Positions 2 through 24,443 of a DNA stretch of 26,501 bases are shown here, piece by piece (positions within the stretch are counted from its first letter, which is position 1; each line of letters begins with the position of its first letter). The DNA is taken from positions 1 through 26,501 of the IMG/VR virus record IMGVR_UViG_3300045747_000334; one strand, written 5' to 3'. The notes beneath the pieces are model-generated. The model did not search any database. It was not told where the DNA came from and saw only the letters and a list, made by a program, of their open reading frames with translations. The position numbers were made by a program, and so were the translations under genes. The DNA comes from a virus.

Positions 2-1357
2 AAGTCCGGAATGGAGATGACGATCAACGAGCACTGCAACAAGTGCGAGTACCAGATCAACCGAAGCCTGCGCGATCGTGCCCGTCACCTGATCACGAAC
101 TACAGCTACTACTTCACCGATCGCCTCGGCTCGCAACTGATGGCGCCACGTTCGGTGTGCGTGTTCGACGAAGCGCACCTGCTGAACGACCTGTACACGG
201 ATCACTGCGCGATTCAGTTCTCGGGCAAGGGATTGCTGCTCACGTCTCAGGAAGTCTCGGACAACCTGAAGCTCGGCGACACCGAAGTGTTCAAGTACCT
301 GAAGATGGTCGGGCAGCACCTGGCTGGCGAGAAGATCACGGACGAGTCGTATCAACAGTACATTCGAATCCTGGCTGACGTGTACACCTCGATCTGCGAG
401 GCAGCTCAGGCTGAAGCCGATCGTTCGGTCCGTTCGCCGGGCACGTACTTGAAGCTCACGAAGCTTGCGAAGAAGTACTTCGGACGAGCCGGGAAGATCC
501 TCGATCTGCTTGAGCACGAGTACCCGCACGTGTTCGAGTTCAAGCCGAAGAGCCCGAAGACCGGACAGAACGACGATGAGGTCACGATCAAGCCGATCTT
601 CGTCTCGGCGATGTTCGAGAACCTCTGCAATGCTCAGCACAATCTCCTGATGTCGGCGACGATCTCTGAGCAGTACGCGAAGCGGACGCTCACGATGGAG
701 CCGGCTGATCGTGTGAAGCACATTCGTCTGCCGCCGCAGTTCCCGCGTGACAACAAGAAGGTCGTGTTCTTCAAGCCGATGTCGCTGAACTTCACGTCGA
801 TGAAGGATCCCGAGACGGTGAAGAAGCTCTGTGCTCACACGTACCAAATCGTGAAGCACCACACCGACAAGGGCGAGCGCGGGATCATTCTGGCTCCGTC
901 GTTCCAGATCGTGGAGTCCGTCGCTGGAACCCTGCGTGGAGCGATGGACACACGGAAGGTGAAGATCTTCGAGCACATCCGTGGTGAGAAGCTGGCTGAC
1001 TGGGTCGAGGCATTCCGGTCGTACGACAAGGGTCCGGCAGTCCTTCTGACTCCGTCAGGGTTCGAAGGTCTCGATCTCCCTGGTGACCTCAGTCGGTTCA
1101 CAGTGATCGTGAAGGCGCCGTTCGGTTCACTCGGTGATCGTCGAATCAAGGTGATCCTCGACATCGCCCCTGACATTTATTCCTTGACAGCGTTGATGAA
1201 GATTGTTCAAGGAACGGGTCGATCTGTTCGAGCGATGACCGACTACGCCACAACATACATCCTTGATCAAGCGGCACAACGTCTCTGGACTTCTAAGCAG
1301 AATGAGTGGAGCGACGAGCACCAGACTTCGTTTGCTTCTGTCCTGACGGGCGTGTAG
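2..1357 (+). CDS. DinG/XPD-like SF2 DNA helicase, C-terminal part (5' end outside window)
   Basis: ATP-dependent helicase of the DinG/XPD (Fe-S, DEAH) class. The frame is open to the window edge and the Walker A motif is missing, so the true start lies upstream; the Met at base 11 is probably internal. Visible motifs in order are a CxxC near the edge (HCNKCEY, a possible part of the Fe-S cluster), the ITNYSYY stretch that precedes the DEAH box in this family, the DEAH box in VCVFDEAHLL, LLMSATI, then the second RecA domain with GIILAPSF, the FEGLDLPGD motif and the QGTGRSVR arginine-finger motif. Such helicases unwind DNA 5'-3' in repair or replication; the substrate here is unknown. The last about 65 bases overlap the 3' end of an antisense homing endonuclease gene. 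Family assignment is secure, exact role is not. Confidence 0.85.
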   Translation, partial: KSGMEMTINEHCNKCEYQINRSLRDRARHLITNYSYYFTDRLGSQLMAPRSVCVFDEAHLLNDLYTDHCAIQFSGKGLLLTSQEVSDNLKLGDTEVFKYLKMVGQHLAGEKITDESYQQYIRILADVYTSICEAAQAEADRSVRSPGTYLKLTKLAKKYFGRAGKILDLLEHEYPHVFEFKPKSPKTGQNDDEVTIKPIFVSAMFENLCNAQHNLLMSATISEQYAKRTLTMEPADRVKHIRLPPQFPRDNKKVVFFKPMSLNFTSMKDPETVKKLCAHTYQIVKHHTDKGERGIILAPSFQIVESVAGTLRGAMDTRKVKIFEHIRGEKLADWVEAFRSYDKGPAVLLTPSGFEGLDLPGDLSRFTVIVKAPFGSLGDRRIKVILDIAPDIYSLTALMKIVQGTGRSVRAMTDYATTYILDQAAQRLWTSKQNEWSDEHQTSFASVLTGV

Positions 1358-3783: not shown

Positions 3784-4019
3784 CTTGCGAATGTGGCTCT
3801 GACAGAATCGCTCGCGTTCGCGCGAAGCACTCGGACTGCGTGTCGATCTCGATCCCAGCGATCGAGTACGAGAAGGATGGCGGCGTGCCGTACGTGAACT
3901 ACGCGAACGGCGATCGATTCCTCGGTGGCGACTACCTGAACCTCGTGTTCTGCCTGGACTGCGGTCGCATTCAGGACTTCGCACCGATCACTGACGCGGA
4001 CATCTACTACGATGAGTAA
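3780..4019 (+). CDS. Zinc-ribbon-like small protein, 79 aa
   Basis: The N-terminal CECGS and a CLDCGR near residue 65 form a CxC...CxxC pair, the layout of a small zinc ribbon; the segment between is beta-rich (SISIPAIEY, VPYVNY). I placed the start at 3780, where ATG overlaps the preceding stop (ATGA). An upstream in-frame ATG at 3648 would only read the previous gene in another frame. The 3' end overlaps the glycosylase-like gene by 8 bases. Such proteins often bind nucleic acid or act as adaptors, but no function can be assigned. Confidence 0.65.
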   Translation: MTCECGSDRIARVRAKHSDCVSISIPAIEYEKDGGVPYVNYANGDRFLGGDYLNLVFCLDCGRIQDFAPITDADIYYDE

Positions 4020-4515
4020 CTGGAACATCCTGAGCGAATCACAGAAGCGCGAGTTCGCTGGGAACCTGGTCGAGCGCCGGAAGGCGTACGAAGCCTGGCA
4101 TCACAATCGGTTCCTCGACGAGAAGAAGGACATCCTTCTGATCGCTGATCAGCCAGGTCCTGGCGCGCCCGACACCGACAACTACCATCACACGCCGTTC
4201 TACGCGAAGACGTACTCGGGTGGCTGGCTGAACGCGCTGCTCGTCGAAGCCGAGATTCGCGAGACTCGTCTGTTCTGGGAGAACTCGGCTGATCGTCACG
4301 GCGTCGCACGTGATCCCCTGATCCTCACGGTTCATCGGTGGAGCCACGTGATCGCTCTCGGCGGGAACGCCGAGAAGTGGTTGAAGAAGAACGGCGTCAC
4401 CTCGTTCTGGAAGTTCGATCACCCGCAGTACCACAAGCGGTGGAAGTCGAAGGAGGGTTTGTACCCGCTCGTGAGCAACCTGAAGGTGATCCTCGATCCA
4501 GGTTCGTTCACGTAA
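4012..4515 (+). CDS. Uracil-DNA-glycosylase superfamily protein (predicted)
   Basis: A 167-residue protein whose motifs line up with family 4/5-type UDGs. ADQPGPGAPDT at residues 45-55 corresponds to the GEAPGxxED water-activating loop. TPFYAKTYSGGWLNALL corresponds to the PFxGxxGxxLxxxL helix. VIALGGNAEKWL matches the ialGxxA strand-helix, and DHPQYHKRW at 136-144 stands where the HPS loop lies. Family members excise uracil or damaged bases. Here the loop residues differ from classical UDGs (Gln replaces the usual Glu/Ala of GEAPG), so base specificity may have changed, possibly toward modified or deaminated bases. The gene overlaps the upstream zinc-ribbon gene. No database search supports this; the call rests on motif order. 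Confidence 0.55.
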   Translation: MSNWNILSESQKREFAGNLVERRKAYEAWHHNRFLDEKKDILLIADQPGPGAPDTDNYHHTPFYAKTYSGGWLNALLVEAEIRETRLFWENSADRHGVARDPLILTVHRWSHVIALGGNAEKWLKKNGVTSFWKFDHPQYHKRWKSKEGLYPLVSNLKVILDPGSFT

Positions 4516-5611: not shown

Positions 5612-6802
5612 ATGAAGATCGAGCTGGCTGAACGATGCCTGAACAAGGAACTAGAAGGTCTCGAGATGCTTCGGCAAGTGATTCATTCTGAAGGGTACCT
5701 GAACATTCTGAATCATCTCTCGACGCACACTGACTACTCTCGCCGGATCATCATCACTGGAGTCGGCAAGAACAGCAACATCGCAGAGAAAGCGGCGGCC
5801 ACATTCGCATCGCTTGGCATCCCAGTTCAATCGCTGAACACATCGCACTGTCCACACGGCGATTATGGCTCAATCGGGCCGAACGACACGATCATTCACA
5901 TCTCTCGAAGTGGGAATACTAAGGAGATGTTGGAGGTGATTCATCATGTCTCTGGAAACTATCCGAATGTCGTTCAGATTTTGATCCACTGCAACAGCAA
6001 GAAGAAGCCGAGCGAATGTCAGTACGAGCTCTGGCTCGGCGATGTTCAAGAAGGCGACGAGTTCGGACTCGCACCCACTTCAACAACTACAACGATTCTA
6101 TGTCTGCTTGACACGCTCGCGGTGGTGCTCTCAAATGCTATCGGCTTCAAGCCACTCGACTTCTTCAAGTACCACCCAGGTGGAAGCTTGGGTGCTGCGT
6201 TCAAAGGCAAGGTCGGCTTCATCTACAAGACTACGAACTTGATCAACGGTCGATTCTATGTTGGGCAATGTCAGAACGACCCTCGCGAGAAGTATCTCGG
6301 ATCTGGGAAACTCTTGGAAGCCGCGATCAAAAAGTATGGCGTCGAGAACTTCAGGCGCGAGATTCTTCAGTACGCAACTCAGGAAGATCTTGACGACCTT
6401 GAGAAGCAATGGATCAGCAGGCTTGACGCAATGAACAAAGAAGCTGGTGGGTACAACCTCCAGCCAGGCGGCCAAGGTGGTTGGTCACACGTGAACGATT
6501 CTGGTCTCCCTAATGGGATGCTTGGTAAGAAGCACAAAGCCTCCTCAAAAGAACAGATGTCAGCAACACGCCAAAGTCGCAAAGTCGGTGTTGGCGAGTC
6601 GAACCCATTCTATGGGAAGAAGCATCAAACCAAATCCATTGAAAAGATGTCGGCTCCTCGACCACACGCAAAGAGTGCTCAAGCTAAACGCATTCAAGGC
6701 CCAGACGGAACGGTCTACAAAAGCAAGACCGCAACAGGCGTCTCTAAGAATAAGCTCGCTGCTTACTTGAATGATCATACTTCTGGTTGGAAGGAAATCT
6801 GA
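5612..6802 (+). CDS. KdsD/KpsF-like SIS sugar-phosphate isomerase fused to GIY-YIG endonuclease
   Basis: A 396-residue two-part protein. Residues 1-197 are a SIS-domain isomerase of the KdsD/KpsF/GutQ (arabinose-5-phosphate isomerase) type: GVGKNSNIAEKAAATFAS (50-67), HGDYG (82-86), ISRSGNT (97-103), LAPTSTTTT (153-161) and the signature YHPGGSLG (187-194). From residue 201 a complete GIY-YIG domain follows without a break (GFIYKTTNLINGRFYVGQ), with KYLGSGK, a probable catalytic Glu in DDLEKQWI, and YNLQPGGQGG. Two NUMOD3-like motifs (GMLGKKHK and NPFYGKKHQT) and a C-terminal DNA-recognition-like segment come next. KdsD interconverts ribulose-5-P and arabinose-5-P. ATG 5612 is chosen over GTG 5600 because GGAG is correctly spaced. 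The fusion point coincides with the usual end of the SIS core, so isomerase activity may survive. Confidence 0.87.
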   Translation: MKIELAERCLNKELEGLEMLRQVIHSEGYLNILNHLSTHTDYSRRIIITGVGKNSNIAEKAAATFASLGIPVQSLNTSHCPHGDYGSIGPNDTIIHISRSGNTKEMLEVIHHVSGNYPNVVQILIHCNSKKKPSECQYELWLGDVQEGDEFGLAPTSTTTTILCLLDTLAVVLSNAIGFKPLDFFKYHPGGSLGAAFKGKVGFIYKTTNLINGRFYVGQCQNDPREKYLGSGKLLEAAIKKYGVENFRREILQYATQEDLDDLEKQWISRLDAMNKEAGGYNLQPGGQGGWSHVNDSGLPNGMLGKKHKASSKEQMSATRQSRKVGVGESNPFYGKKHQTKSIEKMSAPRPHAKSAQAKRIQGPDGTVYKSKTATGVSKNKLAAYLNDHTSGWKEI

Positions 6803-6803
6803 A

Positions 6804-6992
6804 ATGATCATTACCTCTGGTGAAGACGCGAACGGGTGTCGTGTCGTCTCCGAGATTCGACCTGGGTTCGCTGAAGTCGATGTCGGCGAGTTCAACTGGG
6901 ACTGCGGCGAGCCGGTGTTCTACGCGTACCCGCACTTCCCGTTCAACAAGGACAATCTTGAAGCTGTCCTGAACATGATGAAATGGCTCTGA
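6804..6992 (+). CDS. Hypothetical protein, 62 aa
   Basis: Unrecognised small acidic protein with an aromatic stretch (FNWDCGEPVFYAYPHFPF). It starts at the ATG at 6804, one base after the endonuclease stop, with AAGGAAAT about 9 bases upstream. It lies one base before the nucleotidyltransferase gene, so it probably shares its mRNA. Codon use returns to the GC-rich phage pattern here, marking the end of the endonuclease insert. Confidence 0.62.
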   Translation: MIITSGEDANGCRVVSEIRPGFAEVDVGEFNWDCGEPVFYAYPHFPFNKDNLEAVLNMMKWL

Positions 6993-6993
6993 C

Positions 6994-8655
6994 ATGCATC
7001 TCGTAATCGTCGCCGGCGGGCTTGGCTCGCGCCTCGCTCCACTCACGGACAACATCCCGAAGCTCCTCGTGAACATCGGGAAGAACACTGGGTACGTGGA
7101 GATGATTCGGTACTGGAAGTCTCAGATCGACTTCGCTCCGATGGACGAGGATGTGAAGGAGTCGCTGCGCGCTGACGGGTTCGTCCCGAAGGACGCGATG
7201 AACCAGCTCACGGTGATCGTGCACTCGAAGTACGCTGCGATGGTCGCCGAGTACCACAAGCTGTACTTCCCAGAGATCCCGTTGATCGTGAAGTGCGTCG
7301 ACGAAGCGAACGGCTCAGCTCACGCGATCCTGACGACGTGCGAGCACGTGATCGGCGAACAGGCAGTGTTCGCTTGGTGCGACATCATCCCGACTGGTGA
7401 TCTTCACCTTGACCAGTTCACCGAGATGTACAACGGCGCGAACGTCGTGTTCACGAACTACAACAACTCAAATCGGTACGAGCTCGTGCGAGCTGGGACT
7501 GGCTGGGCTGACATGAAGGTCGCGCTCTCGCCGTCAGAGCGAGGTGGGTGCTTCGGCCTGTACTACGTGAGCCGGTTCTCGACTGAAGTCACGTACAAGA
7601 ACGGTCAGGACTTCATCGACATCATCGATCAGTTCGGCAAGCTCCGTGAGCATCGCCTTCAGAACATCATCGACTTCGGTGACATGCCGAAGCTGCGTCG
7701 GACTCAAGAGCGAGCTGACGAAGCTCGTGAGTTCAACTCGGTCGAGTTCATCGGCGATTACGTGCTGAAGCAGGCAACGAACACTCAAGGCAAGGGCATT
7801 CTGAAGCGTGAGATCGCTTGGTATCGTCGTCTCGACGAGCTGCTTGATCCACAGCACGCTCGTCCGTCGGTGCCACGGACCTGGATCGCCTCTGATGGCA
7901 CTGGGTTCTTCATGGAGCGCGTCGAAGGCGTTCCGATCTGGAAGGCTTGGACCGATCTCTCGCCGGTCGATCGGAACTACGTGGTTGGTCAGCTGATCGA
8001 TCAACGCCGGTGGTTGTTCAACCTCGACAAGCATTCAATCGATCTTCAGACGCTGCTTCGCGATGTGAAGACCGAGGCGTACACGAAGCTCCTCGATCGG
8101 TATCACGAAGTCCGTGGTGTGCTGAACTCGTTCGGCGACGTTCGCACGGTGAACGGGTACCGACTTCAAGAGCGAGACCCTGAGATCACGATTCAGCGTG
8201 TTCACGAAGCCCTTGTGAATCACTACGCGAACCTGCCGGTACACGAGTACGGGTTCATTCACGGCGATCTTCAACTGTCGAACTCGATGGTGAACATGTC
8301 GACTCGAAAGGTCACTATCATCGATCCGCGCGGGTACTTTGGGAAGTCCGAGCTTGTCGGTCTCGAGGACTACGACATCGGGAAGCTGCTGTACGCCCTC
8401 AGTGGGTACGACACGTTCAACTGCTCCCGTGAGTTCTTCATCACGAAGGAAGGCGGAGCCCTGTGCTTCGACATCCCAACGCCGAGTCACGAAGGTATTG
8501 AAGAGCTGATGTCGCTGCACTTTCAGCCAGTACACCAGCTCTGGCTTGCTGTCTGTTTCATTGGGCTCGCCCAGTACATCAAGAACGATCCGGTGAAGTC
8601 AATGGCTGCACACTATCACGGTCTCGCTCTGGCTGAGAACGTTCTGAACACCTGA
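6994..8655 (+). CDS. Bifunctional sugar-phosphate nucleotidyltransferase / APH-like kinase
   Basis: A 553-residue fusion of two enzymes. Residues 1-230 are a GT-A-fold nucleotidyltransferase: VIVAGGLGSRLAPLT...PKLL at 4-25 is the GGxGxRLxPLTxxxPKxL signature and FAWCDIIPTGD at 126-136 holds the metal-binding Asp. Residues about 250-553 are an aminoglycoside/choline-kinase-like phosphotransferase, with the catalytic FIHGDLQLSN (421-430) and metal-binding IIDPRG (442-447). Such pairs activate sugars as in LicC/LicA or HddC/HddA: a kinase makes a sugar phosphate and the transferase joins it to an NTP. Beside the KdsD-like isomerase it probably makes an NDP-pentose from arabinose-5-P. A separate phosphatase or mutase and a DNA glycosyltransferase would also be needed and are not in the window. 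Confidence 0.82.
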   Translation: MHLVIVAGGLGSRLAPLTDNIPKLLVNIGKNTGYVEMIRYWKSQIDFAPMDEDVKESLRADGFVPKDAMNQLTVIVHSKYAAMVAEYHKLYFPEIPLIVKCVDEANGSAHAILTTCEHVIGEQAVFAWCDIIPTGDLHLDQFTEMYNGANVVFTNYNNSNRYELVRAGTGWADMKVALSPSERGGCFGLYYVSRFSTEVTYKNGQDFIDIIDQFGKLREHRLQNIIDFGDMPKLRRTQERADEAREFNSVEFIGDYVLKQATNTQGKGILKREIAWYRRLDELLDPQHARPSVPRTWIASDGTGFFMERVEGVPIWKAWTDLSPVDRNYVVGQLIDQRRWLFNLDKHSIDLQTLLRDVKTEAYTKLLDRYHEVRGVLNSFGDVRTVNGYRLQERDPEITIQRVHEALVNHYANLPVHEYGFIHGDLQLSNSMVNMSTRKVTIIDPRGYFGKSELVGLEDYDIGKLLYALSGYDTFNCSREFFITKEGGALCFDIPTPSHEGIEELMSLHFQPVHQLWLAVCFIGLAQYIKNDPVKSMAAHYHGLALAENVLNT

Positions 8656-17613: not shown

Positions 17614-18024
17614 ATGGCAAAGAAACGAGAGCTCTTGTTCTCAGTCACCGCGAGTGACTGTGACTGGGCGTACTCACATGGACAAGGGGCCGGCGGACAA
17701 GCGCGCAATAAGAGCCTCACTGCCGTGCACTGCACGCACAAAGCGTCCGGAGCACGAGCGTACAGTCAAGACGGACGCTCGCAGAAGGACAACAAGTCCG
17801 ATGCGTTCGTGAAGATGTGCAACACCGCCGAGTTCAAGGCGTGGCACAAGCGCGAAGTCTGGAAGAGAATGGGCGTGCTCGATGAGATCGAACGAGCCGT
17901 CGAAGCTGGTATGAACATGTCGAATCTGCGCATCGAGGTGCGAGTCGACGGGAAGTGGGTCGAGGTGTCGTTCAACGCTCCTCTCGACCTGATCATTGAC
18001 TCCGAGAACCTCACTGCCCAATGA
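17614..18024 (+). CDS. Release-factor-like protein with GGQ motif (RF-1 domain)
   Basis: 136 residues, about the size of ArfB/YaeJ and matching domain 3 of class I release factors. [20 protein letters not shown] (21-40) carries the GGQ (27-29) that triggers peptidyl-tRNA hydrolysis. It is followed by the family's THxxSG and [11 protein letters not shown] (55-65; usual form RSQxxNrxxA). There is no stop-codon-reading domain, so it probably rescues stalled or damaged ribosomes, as ArfB and PrfH do. The C-terminus is an acidic strand-helix, not the Lys/Arg tail that ArfB places in the mRNA channel; in that respect it is unlike ArfB. The stop overlaps the J-protein start (ATGA). Confidence 0.82.
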
Positions 18025-18875
18025 CAACGTACTACGAAGATCTCGGTGTCTCAAAGGATGCCACAGGCGACGAAATCAAGAAGGCGTACCGGAAGCTCGC
18101 GTCGAAACACCACCCGGACAAGGGTGGCGATGCCGAGATCTTCAAGAAGATTCAGACGGCGTACGATGTTCTGAGCGACGATGCGAAGCGTGCGCAGTAC
18201 GACAATCCGCCGACGCAAGGCGACGGGTTCCAGCAGTTCAGCGACATCAACGACATCCTGCGACAGATGCGCGCTCACGCGAACGTGCACGTTCAGCAGG
18301 TGTACGAGCTGGTCACGCAGCTCCCGATTCTGAACGCTTACAAGGGTCACACGATGGAGGTCCGCCTCGGGAACGTGGTCGACAAGGTCGTCCTGCCAGC
18401 TGGCATCCCGAATGGTGCCAGAGGGCAGTTCAAGTCCGAGGGTGGGAAGACGGTCGTCGTGACGGTGCGGTTCATGCCGTCCGACTTCGAGACTGTGGAG
18501 ATCAACGAAGCTCGCCCGATCATCGGGTCGAACGGACAGCCAACCGGCGAGATCAACACTGGTGACCTCACAACCTCGGTGAAGGTGAACGCACTCGACA
18601 TCCTGCTCGGTGCCTGGGTGCACGTCTCCGACCTGCTCGGCGACCAGTACCAAGTCCGTGTTCCAGCCGGACACGACATCAACACCCCGCTCCGTCTGAA
18701 GGGCAAGGGGTACAAGAACTGGTCCGTGAAGAACGACAAGGCAGTCGATCATCGCGCTGATCTGTACATTCGCGTGATCCCGGTGTTCAAGCAAGCGAAG
18801 GACCTCGACCCAACGAAGGTTCAAGTGCTGTACGACCTGAACAAGGCACATCACCACATCGACGTAAAGGTCTGA
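18021..18875 (+). CDS. J-domain co-chaperone 1 (DnaJ/CbpA-like)
   Basis: 284 residues. Residues 1-62 are a J domain ([23 protein letters not shown] at 31-33, then [11 protein letters not shown]). The zinc-finger region of DnaJ is absent. Residues about 100-284 form the two beta-barrel client domains, seen in [19 protein letters not shown], the [20 protein letters not shown] segment and [18 protein letters not shown]. This is the class B (CbpA-like) layout. The HPD stimulates a host Hsp70 ATPase, so the phage likely recruits host DnaK for its own assembly or replication. It is coupled to the release-factor-like gene, and a paralogue lies 0.6 kb downstream. Confidence 0.88.
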
Positions 18876-18876
18876 G

Positions 18877-19485
18877 ATGACGTTCGACATTCAATGGGGT
18901 GGTCTGCACACCGTGATCAGCGGTGGACAAACAGGCGCCGATCAGGGCGGCCTTGAGGCTGCTCGGAAAGCTGGCATTCGGACCGGTGGTCAAGCCGCTG
19001 CGCTGTACAAGACCTCGATCGGCCTGAACCCACTGCTTCAAGCGTACGACCTCACCGCGAAGGGTTCGTACGACGAACGGACTCTCGTGAATATCAAGGC
19101 GGCTGATGCCACCGTGATCATCGCGCACAATCTGCAGTCGCCCGGAACCGTTCTGACTCGTCGGTACGCGAAGATCGAAGGCACGAAGCTCCTCGAGCTC
19201 GATGTATCTGAGATCGTTCGGCTTGCTCAGCTCGGCCCGATGAACGGCACCGAAGCAGTGATTGATCTGATCGTGCAGAACTCCGGTGCTCTCGCCGAGT
19301 TCATCAAGAACCATCAAGTTCAAGTGCTGAACGTCGCCGGGAACCGTGAACTGAAGAGCGATGGTCGCCAGTACGGGCACCTCGTGATGCACATGACGAC
19401 TGAGTGGATCGTCGGCACAGCCCTCGAGCTCCTTGATCTTGACGCGAAGCTCGTAAAGCTTCACCAGTCATTTTTGAAAGTGTAA
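18877..19485 (+). CDS. SLOG-superfamily protein (putative molybdenum-carrier / YpsA-LOG type)
   Basis: 202 residues. VISGGQTGADQGGLEAA (13-29) is the glycine-rich nucleotide-binding signature of the LOG/YpsA/putative Mo-carrier group. IRTGGQAA, ATVIIAHNL and a C-terminal VLNVAGNRELKSDG (similar to the family's LNVAGPRxSKxPG) follow in order. SLOG proteins bind or cleave nucleotide ligands, including NAD-derived signals, and occur in defence systems such as Thoeris. The substrate here is not known. It lies between two J-protein genes. Its TAA stop is also the first three bases of a TAAATA late-promoter box. Confidence 0.75.
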   Translation: MTFDIQWGGLHTVISGGQTGADQGGLEAARKAGIRTGGQAAALYKTSIGLNPLLQAYDLTAKGSYDERTLVNIKAADATVIIAHNLQSPGTVLTRRYAKIEGTKLLELDVSEIVRLAQLGPMNGTEAVIDLIVQNSGALAEFIKNHQVQVLNVAGNRELKSDGRQYGHLVMHMTTEWIVGTALELLDLDAKLVKLHQSFLKV

Positions 19486-19510: not shown

Positions 19511-20425
19511 ATGGCTGATCCGTTCAATACACTTGGCATCCCGTCGTCGGCTACGACTGACGAAGCTCGGGCCGCGTACCGGAAGCTAGCATCGAAGCAC
19601 CACCCGGACAAGGGCGGGAACGCTGAGATCTTTAAGGATGTCAAGGCCGCGTTCGAGCTGATCGAAGCCGGGTACACGACACCGCCTCCGTCGACACCGC
19701 CTCCTCGGTACGCTCGTGCATCGTCGTTCACGAAGCCAACCCCAGTGTACGAGGGCACGTTCAACGAGTTCAACCCACGTTCTGGCGGCCCGAACCCGTT
19801 CTATCGTCGTCCGGCATCGAACGCGTACAAGACAGCGGCACCAAAGATCCACCCAGTTCGTCCACGAATCGTCGAGGCGTACCGACCACCTGAAGCGCGT
19901 CAGAACAAGGGTGACTTCATTGCGTACGTCTCGATCACTGAGGCGTACCACGGGTTCCAGTGTGACGTTACAGTGGATGGCGTGAAGCATCGTGTTCAAC
20001 TTCCGGCTGGTGTTCCGCACGGCCTCCGGTTCACTGTGCCGATCAAGGATCAACAGGACGTCACGGTGATCACTCGGTTCACGCAGTCCGAGTACTCGTT
20101 CCTCGGCGTGAACGAGGCGCTCCTCGAGGCAACGATTGTGAACTCCGAACCGGGCAAGGTGTACCGAACGAAGGACCTCCGTGTATCGAAGGAGATCAGA
20201 GCGAAGGATCTGAAGAACGGCACGACCCTTGAGATGGTCGACATCCTTGGCCAGACGTTCAAGGTGAAGGTTCCGGCTGGGCACGATCCACGACAGCCGA
20301 TCGTGATCGAAGGACACGGGTACGTAGATTGGTTCACCAGTCACTCGAAGGCCGGCTCCGTCCGAGGAAAAGTGTACGTCCGTCTGAACCCAACCGAGGA
20401 AGTCCCGATGTCGCATTTGATCTGA
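19511..20425 (+). CDS. J-domain co-chaperone 2 (late-promoter controlled)
   Basis: 304 residues, a paralogue of the J protein at 18021. The J domain has HPD at 31-33 and the shared [15 protein letters not shown] stretch. Then comes a linker of about 80 residues rich in Pro, Tyr and Arg (TPPPSTPPPRY) in place of the usual Gly/Phe segment. The client-binding barrels follow (HRVQLPAGVPHGLRF, LEMVDILGQTFKVKVPAGHD). There is no zinc finger. Because a late promoter with a hairpin precedes it while the first copy lies in an early-looking run, the two copies may serve different stages, for example replication and virion assembly. The zinc-less layout is shared by both. Confidence 0.87.
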   Translation: MADPFNTLGIPSSATTDEARAAYRKLASKHHPDKGGNAEIFKDVKAAFELIEAGYTTPPPSTPPPRYARASSFTKPTPVYEGTFNEFNPRSGGPNPFYRRPASNAYKTAAPKIHPVRPRIVEAYRPPEARQNKGDFIAYVSITEAYHGFQCDVTVDGVKHRVQLPAGVPHGLRFTVPIKDQQDVTVITRFTQSEYSFLGVNEALLEATIVNSEPGKVYRTKDLRVSKEIRAKDLKNGTTLEMVDILGQTFKVKVPAGHDPRQPIVIEGHGYVDWFTSHSKAGSVRGKVYVRLNPTEEVPMSHLI

Positions 20426-20441: not shown

Positions 20442-21005
20442 ATGGACACACAAGCAACTAGGTCAAAGTACCTCTCAATGCTTCTTCGGCACAAACCGGA
20501 GAAAGCGAATCTCGAGCTAAGCCGTGAAGGTTGGTGCTCGATTCAAGAGCTCATCGAGAACACCGACTTCACACTGATCGAGCTGATGAACATCGTTCGA
20601 GACGATCAGAAGCAACGGTACGCCACGAACCCGTCATTCGGCGAGTGCCTCCGAACAGGTGAGCAGCCAACCGAGATCCGGGCGAACCAAGGGCACAGCA
20701 CGAAGGACGTGAAGATGACGTTCAGAAAGGTCGTGCCACCAGTCGTCCTGTACCACGGCGCTGACGATCAGTTCCTCGAGATCATCTTCAAGAAGGGCCT
20801 GCTCCCGATCAAGCGCCATCACGTGCACCTCTCGGCAACAGTTGATGTCGCTGAGGCAGTTGGTGGCCGTCGGAAGCATGGGTACCAGGTGCTCGAGATC
20901 GACGCGAAACAAATGGTCGCTGATGGTCTCCAGTTCTACATCTCCGAGAACGGCGTGTACCTCGCCGATCATGTCCCAGCGAAATACTTGAAAGAGCACG
21001 CATGA
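20442..21005 (+). CDS. kptA: RNA 2'-phosphotransferase (Tpt1/KptA family)
   Basis: 187 residues, typical for KptA. It transfers an RNA 2'-phosphate to NAD+, giving 2'-OH RNA, nicotinamide and ADP-ribose 1'',2''-cyclic phosphate. The four catalytic residues known from Tpt1 can be matched: Arg16 and His17 in LLRHKP, Arg80 in EIRANQGHS (78-86), and Arg143/144 in VGGRRKHG. LYHGADD (103-109), HHVHLSAT (126-133) and ENGVYLADHVP (169-179) are family signatures. In phages it may heal tRNA or rRNA after host nuclease attack and ligation, or move ADP-ribose to other ends. It lies in one overlapping run with thymidylate synthase, and a macro-domain gene able to handle its by-product follows 1.3 kb on. 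Confidence 0.9.
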   Translation: MDTQATRSKYLSMLLRHKPEKANLELSREGWCSIQELIENTDFTLIELMNIVRDDQKQRYATNPSFGECLRTGEQPTEIRANQGHSTKDVKMTFRKVVPPVVLYHGADDQFLEIIFKKGLLPIKRHHVHLSATVDVAEAVGGRRKHGYQVLEIDAKQMVADGLQFYISENGVYLADHVPAKYLKEHA

Positions 21006-21955
21006 ACACGACACCAAGCTGGGAGCACCAGTACCTCGGTCTCTGCCAAGACATCCTCGAGTGCGGTGAAGACCGGATCGACCGGACTGGGACTGGCACT
21101 CGCGCGCTGTTCTCGAATCAGCTCGACATCGACGTCTCGCAGGGTTTCCCGCTGCTCACGACGAAGAAGATGCCGTTCAAGATGATCGTCTCGGAACTCC
21201 TGTGGTTCCTCGAAGGCTCCACCGATGAACGCCGGCTGGCTGAGATTCATCACGGCACTCGTGACGAGTCCGTCGCCACGATCTGGACGGCGAATGCTCA
21301 AGCCGCGTACTGGAAGCCGAAGGCTGCGTTCGACGGCGATCTCGGGAACGTGTACGGGAAGCAGTGGCGCTCGTGGGAGAAGGTCACAGTGAAGTCGTAC
21401 GACGACTACCTGAATCACCACGACGGCTCCGGTGCCACGACGTACTTCAACGCGAAGGTCGTTCGTGAGCAGTTCGACCAGATCAAGGAAGCGATTCAGA
21501 AGATCAAGTCGAACCCGACCGATCGCCGGATCCTCGTCTCGGCTTGGAATGTCGGCGACCTGAACAACATGGCTCTCCCGCCGTGCCACATGTTCTTCCA
21601 GTTCTTCGTCTCTCTGAAGGGTGGGATGCGTCGTCTGTCCCTGAAGATGTACCAGCGCTCGGTGGACACGGCTCTTGGCCTCCCGTTCAACATCGCCTCG
21701 TACGCCCTGCTTCTGATGATGGTCGCTCAGGTCACGAACTGCACTCCGCATCGCTTGATCATGGACCTCGGCGACACTCACCTGTACGCCGATCACCTGG
21801 ACATGATCCCGACGCAGCTCGAACGGAAGCCGATGGCCTCGCCGATCGTGCTCCTGAATCCAGACGTCACTGACATCGACGGGTTCAAGATGGATGACTT
21901 CGCCCTCGTGAACTACGAGAGCCATCCAGGTATCCCGTACAAGATGAGCACCTGA
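21002..21955 (+). CDS. thyA: Thymidylate synthase family enzyme
   Basis: 317 residues. Family landmarks are DRTGTG (phosphate-binding Arg28), VYGKQWRSW, RRILVSAWNVGDL, the catalytic Cys195 in ALPPCHMFFQF, YQRSVD (217-222), GLPFNIASYALL (Asn230) and DTHLYADH. Asn230 is the residue that selects dUMP; T4 dCMP hydroxymethylase has Asp there, so this enzyme should use dUMP. It likely makes dTMP; a dUMP hydroxymethylase cannot be excluded from sequence alone. Length exceeds the 264 residues of E. coli ThyA through insertions around residues 97-113 (NAQAAYWKPKAAF) and 131-150 (YDDYLNHHDGSGATTYFN). The start overlaps the Tpt1 stop (ATGA). Confidence 0.93.
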   Translation: MNTTPSWEHQYLGLCQDILECGEDRIDRTGTGTRALFSNQLDIDVSQGFPLLTTKKMPFKMIVSELLWFLEGSTDERRLAEIHHGTRDESVATIWTANAQAAYWKPKAAFDGDLGNVYGKQWRSWEKVTVKSYDDYLNHHDGSGATTYFNAKVVREQFDQIKEAIQKIKSNPTDRRILVSAWNVGDLNNMALPPCHMFFQFFVSLKGGMRRLSLKMYQRSVDTALGLPFNIASYALLLMMVAQVTNCTPHRLIMDLGDTHLYADHLDMIPTQLERKPMASPIVLLNPDVTDIDGFKMDDFALVNYESHPGIPYKMST

Positions 21956-21957
21956 AC

Positions 21958-22275
21958 ATGGGGCACTACCTCGCTGAGATGCAGTGCGATGTCTGCGGAC
22001 AGGTTCGCTGTATCTGTATTCAACAGGTGATCGACGACTCTGACTCGTTCGTCGTTGAGGGATTCGAAGTCCTGACGGTGCGTGAGTTCCGTGAACGGTT
22101 CGCTGGGAGCAATGCCCTGAACATGAAGCTTGCGTTCAAGACGAAGTACAAGACTCGTCTGAACGCCGAGAAGGCAGCTCGGAAGGCCTGCGAGGAGGCA
22201 GTTGAGGCTGCTCGATTCAATCTGACTCTGCTGAAGAAGACCCTGAAGGTTACACGTCCCTGGGAGCTGAAGTGA
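21958..22275 (+). CDS. Hypothetical protein, 105 aa, N-terminal Cys cluster
   Basis: Unrecognised. The N-terminus has CDVCGQVRCIC (CxxC...CxC), a possible zinc-binding knuckle. The rest is a long, basic, Ala/Lys-rich helical region (RLNAEKAARKACEEAVEAARF) that could form a coiled coil. It overlaps the macro-domain gene start (GTGA), so the two are likely co-translated; whether they interact is unknown. Confidence 0.68.
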   Translation: MGHYLAEMQCDVCGQVRCICIQQVIDDSDSFVVEGFEVLTVREFRERFAGSNALNMKLAFKTKYKTRLNAEKAARKACEEAVEAARFNLTLLKKTLKVTRPWELK

Positions 22276-22724
22276 ACGTCATCGAAGGCGACCTGATCGC
22301 TAGCGTACAGAAAGGCCTGATTCTGCAGCAAGTGAACGCTCAGGGTACGATGGGCTCTGGGTTCGCTAAGGCCCTGTACGAACGGTACCCAGAGGTTCGT
22401 GAGCGGTACTGCGACCGGTACCTGATGAACCAGTACCATCGTGGGTACGATTACATGGGCGACATTCAGGTCGTTCAGATCACGCCCGAACTGTTCGTCG
22501 TGAACATGGTAGCTCAGCAGTTCTACGGGAAAGACGGAAAGCGGTACACCTCGTACGATGCCCTCGATACCTGCCTACAGAAGATCGCTGCGAAGAGAAC
22601 TGCTGGAATGCCGATCCATCACCCGCTGATCGGCTGCGGCCTCGGCGGTGCGCACTGGCCCGTCGTTGAACAACTGTTCGAACTTCATCTCCCAGACACG
22701 AATCTCTGGATCCTACCGACCTGA
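22272..22724 (+). CDS. Macro-domain protein (Poa1p/ALC1-like ADP-ribose-binding)
   Basis: 150 residues, a stand-alone macro domain. LQQVNAQGTMGSGFAKALY (18-36) is the ADP-ribose-binding loop (NxxGxMGxGxA), with Asn22 and Gly28-Gly30. IGCGLGGAHWPVVEQLF (120-136) is the second loop, in the form used by the ALC1-like/Poa1p group. Members hydrolyse ADP-ribose-1''-phosphate or remove ADP-ribose from targets. That fits its place between a Tpt1, whose by-product is a cyclic phosphate of ADP-ribose, and an ADP-ribosyltransferase. The start is GTG at 22272, overlapping the previous stop. Enzyme activity is inferred from family, not shown. Confidence 0.85.
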   Translation: MNVIEGDLIASVQKGLILQQVNAQGTMGSGFAKALYERYPEVRERYCDRYLMNQYHRGYDYMGDIQVVQITPELFVVNMVAQQFYGKDGKRYTSYDALDTCLQKIAAKRTAGMPIHHPLIGCGLGGAHWPVVEQLFELHLPDTNLWILPT

Positions 22725-22760: not shown

Positions 22761-24443
22761 ATGGAACTCCTGTCGACCCTTCAAGAAGCCTCTGGGCATC
22801 CTATCGAAGATCTGAAGAAGATCATGTCGAAGGATCCCCGGACGAAGCCACTGTTCACCAAGGGCCTCGAGCTCACTGACCTTCGGAACCCAGCCGAGTT
22901 CCTGAACTCCGTGAAGTTCTTCCTGTTGAACAACCGGAACGTTCTGCAGTTCGTCGAGGACCGGAACTACACGAAGGACATGAGCTCAGCCACCCTGAAG
23001 AAGCTTCGTGAGCTGAAGGCCTCTGCTCTGACGCAAAAGGACATCGACGCGCTTCAAGAGTTCACCGCTGACCTGTTCCGTGAGTTCAGTTACGTTGAAC
23101 GGAATGGTATCTCCGGCCCGGTCCGAAAGGAACTCGTGGACTGGAAGAACGGCAATGGACGGTACTTCGATCTCTCCCGCTCCGCTCAGAAGGAGCTGAT
23201 GTCCGTGCCCGGCCTCCGTCCGACACGCCCTACTCTTCTGTACCGTGGCCTGTTGTTCAGCTCACACGATCTGAAGGAGCGTAAGCGGTACGACGGACAG
23301 ATGGAAGTCGGCAAGGGCCTGCAGTTCCTGCGCTCCGTGCGCGATGGCTCCCGTGTTCTTGATCTCGAATGGGATCGCGCCTCCTCGTGGTCCACCGACC
23401 GTGATACGGCGCTCGCGTTCGCTAAGTTCGGCTCAGCAAAGAATACATTCGGCGCTACGCTTCAGTGGCTCGAGCGCTCCGGTCGTGGTGACGCGATCGA
23501 CGGTGACCTTGGATTCCTGATCTCCACCCTGGCTCAGCCCGAGGACATTCTGATCGATGTCCTGCGCCTGCAAACCGCTGCGCACCTGAAGCACGGCTCA
23601 GAAGCCGAAATGATTCTGGCTCCCGGTAAGTACACGTGTCGTGTCGCTACGAAGCTTACCAAGAAAGGCGAAGTCGATCCGATCGCTCCAGTCGCCGACG
23701 AGTCCGTGAACAACGTGATCGAAGCTGTTCGTGAGTTCGCCAGAACCTGGAAGATCGATGTTCCACCCGGCATTATCGACGAGAACTGGAGCTCCGTTGA
23801 CGCAGAACGCGCTCTGGATCACGGGAACACCGATTTGTTCCTTTCCCTGTGTTCGCGTACAGTCAAGGAAGAACTATTGCGCTCATATTCCGAGCTGAAG
23901 AGTTTCTACGACGATCATCTGAAAGCAATTCCAACCGAGACGCTACAATCCCTGGTCGCCGACAAGACTGCTGGCCCGATCATCGATTGGATCGTGCAGC
24001 TCCGGAAGCAGATGACTGGACCGAATCAGCACCCCGCTTTCAAAAAGCCAGACAATTCCCGTGGGAGAACCACGAACGATCAGCTCACTCCAGAACAATT
24101 CCGAGAATCCGGGTACACGCTCCTGTCCGATCGTGTGAAGGAGATCGCGCAAGGTGGTAGATTCACCGACGGGATGCTCGGTCTCGTCCTGAACAAGCTC
24201 GGCAAGGGATTCGGTGTGAAGATCGATCGCGACATCAATCGTCGTGGTCGTAAAGAACAGGAAGAAGCTGTCAGTCAGATGCTCGATGGATTCTTCAAAA
24301 TCCTGAAGCAAGAGCGACCAGCTGATCAGACAGAAGCACTGAAGATCCTCCGGAATGCCCTCACAGCTGCTGAACGGAACGCTCGCCTTCTGAACGAACT
24401 TCTGCATCGTCGAGAGCTACTTGATGACGCTCTCGCCCGCTAA
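22761..24443 (+). CDS. Alt-like mono-ADP-ribosyltransferase (R-S-E class)
   Basis: 560 residues. The three catalytic elements of arginine-type ADP-ribosyltransferases are in order: Arg162 in LLYRGL, the STS-type ASSWSTD (207-213), and the ExE motif Glu281-x-Glu283 in SEAEMIL. It would move ADP-ribose from NAD+ to host proteins; T4 Alt targets RNA polymerase and others. The start MELLSTLQEA resembles a capsid-targeting peptide: LQE before Ala matches the T4 gp21 protease consensus (L/I)xE, so it may be packaged in the head, cut and injected. A late promoter supports packaging. Residues about 300-560 match no domain I know, including charged helical parts (RRGRKEQEEAVSQML). Family call is firm; Alt equivalence is inference. 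Confidence 0.85.
   Translation: MELLSTLQEASGHPIEDLKKIMSKDPRTKPLFTKGLELTDLRNPAEFLNSVKFFLLNNRNVLQFVEDRNYTKDMSSATLKKLRELKASALTQKDIDALQEFTADLFREFSYVERNGISGPVRKELVDWKNGNGRYFDLSRSAQKELMSVPGLRPTRPTLLYRGLLFSSHDLKERKRYDGQMEVGKGLQFLRSVRDGSRVLDLEWDRASSWSTDRDTALAFAKFGSAKNTFGATLQWLERSGRGDAIDGDLGFLISTLAQPEDILIDVLRLQTAAHLKHGSEAEMILAPGKYTCRVATKLTKKGEVDPIAPVADESVNNVIEAVREFARTWKIDVPPGIIDENWSSVDAERALDHGNTDLFLSLCSRTVKEELLRSYSELKSFYDDHLKAIPTETLQSLVADKTAGPIIDWIVQLRKQMTGPNQHPAFKKPDNSRGRTTNDQLTPEQFRESGYTLLSDRVKEIAQGGRFTDGMLGLVLNKLGKGFGVKIDRDINRRGRKEQEEAVSQMLDGFFKILKQERPADQTEALKILRNALTAAERNARLLNELLHRRELLDDALAR

Follow-up and report, generated by a model that had tools for sequence, protein, structure and literature searches.

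In phage RB69, the genes ORF055c and ORF53_52c were proposed by the RB69 authors to make an arabinose donor (PMC6024577). The base of this phage was claimed to be arabinosyl-hydroxymethylcytosine and this has since been revised; a later report gives 5-arabinosyl-deoxycytidine (5-arabinosyl-dC), with the arabinose directly on C5 and formed via 5-hydroxy-deoxycytidine monophosphate (5-hydroxy-dCMP) (PMC13390438). A homologue of ORF53_52c is also present in Shewanella phage Thanatos, for which the cytosine-linked pentose has been reported as a deoxypentose (PMC12838424), and therefore the sugar may vary. Here we describe a gene pair of this type at positions 5612–8655 of a contig of 26,501 nucleotides (26.5 kb), which is the entire virus record IMGVR_UViG_3300045747_000334 and is called the window below. 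The window represents part of the genome of a large, T4-related phage, and judged from their sequences both genes are orthologous to ORF055c and ORF53_52c. While such donor genes are already known as ordinary members of a phage pathway, two features are new: the in-frame fusion of an endonuclease to the isomerase and, in related genomes, the occurrence of RB69-type donor genes alongside both a T4-type transferase and a distinct clade of dCMP-type synthases.

Results and Discussion

The donor gene pair

The locus comprises the following features (ORF, open reading frame; aa, amino acids):

5612..6208, + strand: SIS sugar-phosphate isomerase domain of the RB69 ORF055c / KdsD type, residues 1–199 of the fused ORF (Pfam SIS, phrog_5670, TIGR00393 similarity, Foldseek)
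6209..6802, + strand: GIY-YIG homing endonuclease domain with a NUMOD3-like motif, in frame with the isomerase (TIGR01453, phrog_314, conserved in three phages)
6804..6992, + strand: small ORF (62 aa, start ATG 6804) that separates the fusion from the nucleotidyltransferase-kinase (ORF list)
6994..8655, + strand: nucleotidyltransferase-APH kinase, RB69 ORF53_52c orthologue, 553 aa (phrog_4098, Pfam, AlphaFold)

The fused ORF 5612–6802 starts with an ATG at 5612 that is preceded by a GGAG. Its isomerase half matches Pfam SIS (E = 3e-12) and phrog_5670 'arabinose 5-phosphate isomerase' (E = 5e-64), and the top PDB matches of this half in Foldseek were 5uqi (E. coli c3406 with arabinose-5-phosphate) and 2xhz (KdsD). 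It is 67% identical to the isomerase of the IMG/VR contig L002 and 49% identical to that of RB69. The residues Lys52, His81, Glu146 and His187 are invariant across 15 sequences and correspond to what we take to be the active-site positions Lys59, His88, Glu152 and His193 of KdsD, with the chain in 2xhz reading Ala at the Lys59 position. An earlier, sequence-only reading of this DNA had described full KdsD motifs, and HGD (residues 81–83), SRSGNT and HPGGSLG (187–193) are indeed present; 'full' was too strong, as Glu85 and Glu111 of KdsD are replaced by His78 and Asn101. The phage isomerases lack both glutamates, that of RB69 included, and with two KdsD active-site residues replaced the substrate of the isomerase is therefore presumed. 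The profile for the E. coli KdsD equivalog, NF008141 (NCBIfam), gave only 95.9 bits against a cut-off of 505, with the C-terminal half of the profile missing. The same reading described the ORF as a SIS isomerase, which holds for the first half, and overlooked the GIY-YIG endonuclease fused as the second half.

Its description of a nucleotidyltransferase and a kinase on one chain, 190 bases further on, was correct: Pfam places NTP_transferase N-terminally and APH C-terminally in the protein encoded at 6994–8655, the protein matches phrog_4098 (E = 5e-105), and the gap to the fused ORF is 191 bases (6803–6993). The likeness to the arabinose-linked genes of RB69 that it had pointed out also holds at the level of orthology (PMC6024577). 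At least 80% of this protein is covered in 363 phage records, and its AlphaFold model (pLDDT 88.7) has sugar-1-phosphate nucleotidyltransferases as best PDB folds. For the pair of genes the matches are far stronger than chance would produce. For the small ORF at 6804..6992 neither a family match nor relatives were found; at the same place L007, a second contig with the fusion, has a different small ORF and L002 has none.

An endonuclease fused into the isomerase

The SIS domain extends to about residue 198, and from about residue 199–200 on the ORF encodes the GIY-YIG endonuclease (profile region 199–385). This half matches TIGR01453 with 73.1 bits (cut-off 56.05) and phrog_314 (E = 2e-41), and with Pfam, GIY-YIG is slightly under its cut-off and SegE above its own. 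The catalytic positions Tyr, Tyr, Arg, Glu and Asn are present by inspection. Thus, predicted isomerase and endonuclease functions lie on one chain. The fusion with the identical junction HPGGSLGA-x-F-...-K-V-G-F-I-Y-K occurs in the window and in the two IMG/VR contigs L002 and L007, the latter being the locus in the 336-kb record G002. An assembly artefact was ruled out, as the junction is common to three independent contigs. When bacterial and archaeal genomes were searched with an alignment of the fused proteins, no relative came up.

The isomerase of L021, the locus in record G005, is unfused and has a longer tail ending in ALDLPQPGMEHV. After the endonuclease, the fused proteins of L002 and L007 end in PLDRPAPGMEAA and VLDKPEPGCEAQ, respectively, with differing codons, and their tail LDxPxPGxE matches the end of the unfused L021 isomerase. 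Because both retain the tail of the unfused relative behind the endonuclease, the simplest reading is an old single in-frame insertion of a GIY-YIG homing endonuclease, which would have entered an ancestral gene at the point where the isomerase core meets its short C-terminal tail and been co-inherited since; the window, which is without this tail, would have lost it later. L002 and L007 are each other's closest relatives in the isomerase half as well as in the endonuclease half. Between the window, L002 and L007 the nonsynonymous divergence of the endonuclease core (0.13–0.20) does not exceed that of the isomerase (0.16–0.28), with synonymous sites being saturated.

The name of TIGR01453, a group I intron endonuclease, and the reading frame that runs on into the tail could also indicate a group I intron or an intein that is removed before the protein is made. 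However, an Rfam intron search gave nothing in the window at the gathering score and, with the limit relaxed to E = 10, still nothing in either of the two locus regions, no Pfam intein family was found at E ≤ 0.01, and in L002 the start of the next gene overlaps the stop codon of the fusion, which therefore leaves no room for an intron core. On these grounds the intron or intein was ruled out, and we consider it highly improbable.

It is also conceivable that the insertion crippled the isomerase and that the lineage with the fusion is losing the pathway, since the insert follows directly after the HPGGSLG active-site motif and the window has lost the tail retained in L002 and L007. Yet unfused RB69-type isomerases end only 6–8 residues past HPGG(S/A)LG, so that the SIS core in the window is complete, every residue invariant among the unfused phage isomerases is retained in it, and the nonsynonymous divergence of the SIS half is low. 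A decaying pathway thus appears improbable to us. It is unusual for an in-frame endonuclease to persist inside a metabolic enzyme in divergent phages, and one may ask if the two parts are both functional on a single chain.

A second, free-standing GIY-YIG gene is located at 1293–1937 (− strand) of the window. It runs antisense to the helicase gene described below, whose 3' end it overlaps, and G002 and G005 contain close relatives of it at different locations.

Partner enzymes in related genomes

Three further features of the window are needed for the comparison with its relatives:

11..1357, + strand: DinG-like helicase, truncated at the left end of the window (Pfam, gene-order comparison)
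4012..4515, + strand: uracil-DNA-glycosylase (UDG)-like protein, near sugar genes in G002–G005 and G007 too (by inspection)
21002..21955, + strand: canonical thymidylate synthase with Asn at the deoxyuridine monophosphate (dUMP) position, not a modifying synthase (Pfam E = 3e-95, residue check)

The named phages nearest to the window by the topoisomerase large subunit are Xanthomonas phage X1 and the jumbo phages XacN1 and CM1, and the gene order agrees with that of IMG/VR records between 93 and 343 kb long. The isomerase and nucleotidyltransferase-kinase pair is present in the relatives G002, G004 and G005 (336, 152 and 342 kb); of the relatives read, G007 (IMGVR_UViG_3300025113_000003) most resembles the window in its topoisomerase and gene order.

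G002, G004 and G005 each encode a canonical thymidylate synthase orthologous to that of the window and a second, dCMP-type synthase homologue. In these three and in G007 the second synthase lies directly upstream of the orthologue of the DinG-like helicase. The gene order TS2-helicase-...-isomerase-NTase/kinase-topoisomerase is shared by G002, G004 and G005. From the location of the second synthase the corresponding gene is expected in the window's phage to the left of the truncated helicase, and thus probably just outside the left end of the window. The second synthases of all four genomes retain Glu60, Cys148 and Asp179 of T4 gp42. Position 60 is Phe in the synthases of RB69, WSPA, PspYZU05 and G003, and the canonical synthases, including that of the window, have Asn at position 179. 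In folate-dependent synthases Glu60 acts as the catalytic glutamate, and because it is retained we infer that the second synthase is a dCMP hydroxymethylase and not a 5-hydroxy-dCMP synthase. In the phylogenetic tree the second synthases form their own clade outside the T4 and RB69 clades, with the order of the clades unresolved and a warning for long branches. The RB69-type 5-hydroxy-dCMP synthase clade with Phe at T4 Glu60 is absent from G002, G004 and G005 and present in G003. Glu60 versus Phe60 might serve as a simple sequence test, to be checked, to distinguish between hydroxymethylating and hydroxylating dCMP enzymes.

In addition, G002, G004 and G005 each encode a protein of the T4 beta-glucosyltransferase (BGT) family (Pfam 71 bits against a cut-off of 27; PDB 1bgt, E = 4e-31), in which residues 22, 100, 191, 195, 258, 269 and 272 are conserved. 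Such a homologue is also found in five relatives without the isomerase (G008, G010, G014, G015 and G016). At T4 BGT positions 256 and 264 the three isomerase-bearing genomes have changes from Ile to Thr and from Asn to Asp, respectively, and differ there from T4 and from three isomerase-free relatives. Lying close to the Asp258/Arg269 region, these are candidate donor-specificity positions, which is suggestive only.

With such a homologue the phage DNA might simply be glucosylated from host uridine diphosphate (UDP)-glucose, the isomerase/kinase pair then adding a second or unrelated modification. The five isomerase-free relatives, where host UDP-glucose would serve, are in line with this, whereas the altered positions 256 and 264 of the isomerase-bearing genomes speak, suggestively, for another donor; we consider plain glucosylation unlikely. 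Somewhat less likely still is a role of the pair outside DNA, in which its product, a pentose or another sugar nucleotide, would serve for example in remodelling of host surface polysaccharides or in protein glycosylation. Bacteria do use KdsD/KpsF isomerases and sugar-1-phosphate nucleotidyltransferases in lipopolysaccharide and capsule synthesis, and 5uqi (c3406), the closest relative with a solved structure, is a phosphosugar isomerase from a bacterium. In cultured phages, however, the pair is located in DNA-modification clusters, in G002, G004 and G005 it shares the gene region with the dCMP-type synthase and the DNA-glucosyltransferase homologue, and no further gene for surface sugars could be recognised in the window.

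The sequence-only reading had rightly noted the dUMP-type Asn in the thymidylate synthase of the window and had predicted a hydroxymethylase and a glycosyltransferase elsewhere in the genome. A dCMP-type synthase and a BGT-family enzyme do exist in G002, G004 and G005, and neither is in the window. Its model of RB69-like DNA arabinosylation is supported for the donor genes by their orthology, but the partner enzymes of the relatives are of the T4 and not of the RB69 type, and arabinosyl-hydroxymethylcytosine as the RB69 base, which it had assumed, is outdated according to the revision (PMC13390438).

A proposed pathway

With moderate confidence we read the locus as supplying the sugar donor in a pathway by which the phage decorates cytosine. 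This pathway is probable, and we infer arabinose as its sugar, hydroxymethylcytosine as the acceptor, an active fused enzyme and the order of the reactions. The SIS domain would convert a pentulose phosphate, most likely ribulose-5-phosphate, into an aldopentose-5-phosphate, most likely arabinose-5-phosphate. The APH-type kinase domain of the second protein would then phosphorylate C1, a phosphatase (a HAD protein in RB69-type clusters) would remove the 5-phosphate and the nucleotidyltransferase domain would form a nucleoside diphosphate (NDP)-pentose, most likely NDP-arabinose, an order proposed by analogy with the GmhA-HddA-GmhB-HddC heptose route. The acceptor would be provided by the putative hydroxymethylase-type synthase, and a DNA glycosyltransferase encoded somewhere in the genome, in the relatives the T4 BGT homologue, would move the pentose to the modified cytosine.

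Several points weigh against this pathway. Neither the dCMP-type synthase nor a glycosyltransferase is encoded within the 26.5-kb fragment, and the BGT gene is missing from its syntenic place in the window. In G002, G004 and G005 neither a HAD phosphatase of PF08282, a family present in G003, nor a dCTPase of PF08761 was found, both being narrow families and thus weak negatives. Besides the two replaced KdsD glutamates, the fused endonuclease could impair the isomerase, and the AlphaFold model of the endonuclease half is of low confidence.

The different partner enzymes of the relatives suggest a DNA decoration unlike the known one, and phages of the G002/G004/G005 type may make arabinosyl-hydroxymethylcytosine. 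With the claim of this base for RB69 since revised, they are concrete candidates for a virus that would make it. A more far-reaching and rather doubtful possibility is that this group of jumbo phages makes true arabinosyl-5-hydroxymethylcytosine with a hydroxymethylase of the new clade, a BGT-fold enzyme altered for an arabinose donor and the RB69-type donor pair, with the sugar genes as a swappable cassette that the embedded endonuclease may spread or protect. The idea of a swappable cassette comes from G007, where the corresponding region contains genes for a UDP-galactose epimerase-like protein and a UDP-galactopyranose mutase.

Other genes in G007 and in the window

This segment of G007 (45661–50222, L135) is located between UDG-like and guanylate-kinase-like genes downstream of the dCMP-type synthase. 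Besides the epimerase-like protein and the mutase, which matches Pfam GLF (E = 2e-50), it encodes a 416-aa protein and what is probably a short HNH endonuclease. The 416-aa protein looks glycosyltransferase-like by eye and has no Pfam or PDB match. The segment is possibly a galactofuranose donor cassette for DNA.

The window also contains a cluster connected with NAD/ADP-ribose chemistry, consisting of a KptA/Tpt1 RNA 2'-phosphotransferase (20442–21005), a macro domain protein (22272–22724) and a cpYpsA SLOG protein (18877–19485), of which the KptA/Tpt1 and macro domain genes are conserved in G002, G004 and G005. Adjoining the macro domain gene, a 560-aa protein (22761–24443) has no Pfam family and a 28% identical relative in G007. 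Two neighbouring DnaJ-like genes (18021–18875 and 19511–20425) occur as a pair in G002 too. Between the topoisomerase and DnaJ genes, a small release-factor-like protein (17614–18024; Pfam RF-1, GGQ motif) is 82% identical in G007, and a role in ribosome rescue or takeover is possible.

Comparison with known systems

The closest described systems are the RB69/Mosigvirus genes ORF055c and ORF53_52c (phrog_5670 and phrog_4098), which both proteins of the window match over nearly their full length and in the same order. The nucleotidyltransferase-kinase is about 31–36% identical to the versions of T4-like phages and the isomerase, as given above, 49% to that of RB69, from which it differs by the fused endonuclease. 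G003 carries an RB69-like set with an unfused isomerase, the nucleotidyltransferase-kinase, a HAD phosphatase, a 5-hydroxy-dCMP synthase-like protein and a phrog_3891 protein. In contrast, the related jumbo genomes are without a detectable 5-hydroxy-dCMP synthase clade, phrog_3891 protein or ORF003c and have the distinct dCMP-type synthase and the BGT-family enzyme instead. No match to ORF003c or phrog_3891 was found in the window, G002, G004 and G005, whose records may be incomplete, and the search of the related genomes with RB69 ORF003c, also without a match, had no positive control in that set. With the hydroxymethylcytosine glucosylation of T4 the relatives share the Glu60/Cys148/Asp179 pattern of gp42 and the catalytic and nucleotide-binding residues of BGT, but their synthase belongs to its own clade and T4 has neither the isomerase nor the nucleotidyltransferase-kinase. 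The fused endonuclease resembles the GIY-YIG endonucleases SegA/SegE of T4-like phages (phrog_314) in its catalytic domain, its NUMOD3-like motif and its location in a DNA-modification gene region, as segA adjoins b-gt in T4. Unlike these it is neither free-standing nor intron-borne and lies in frame inside a metabolic gene.

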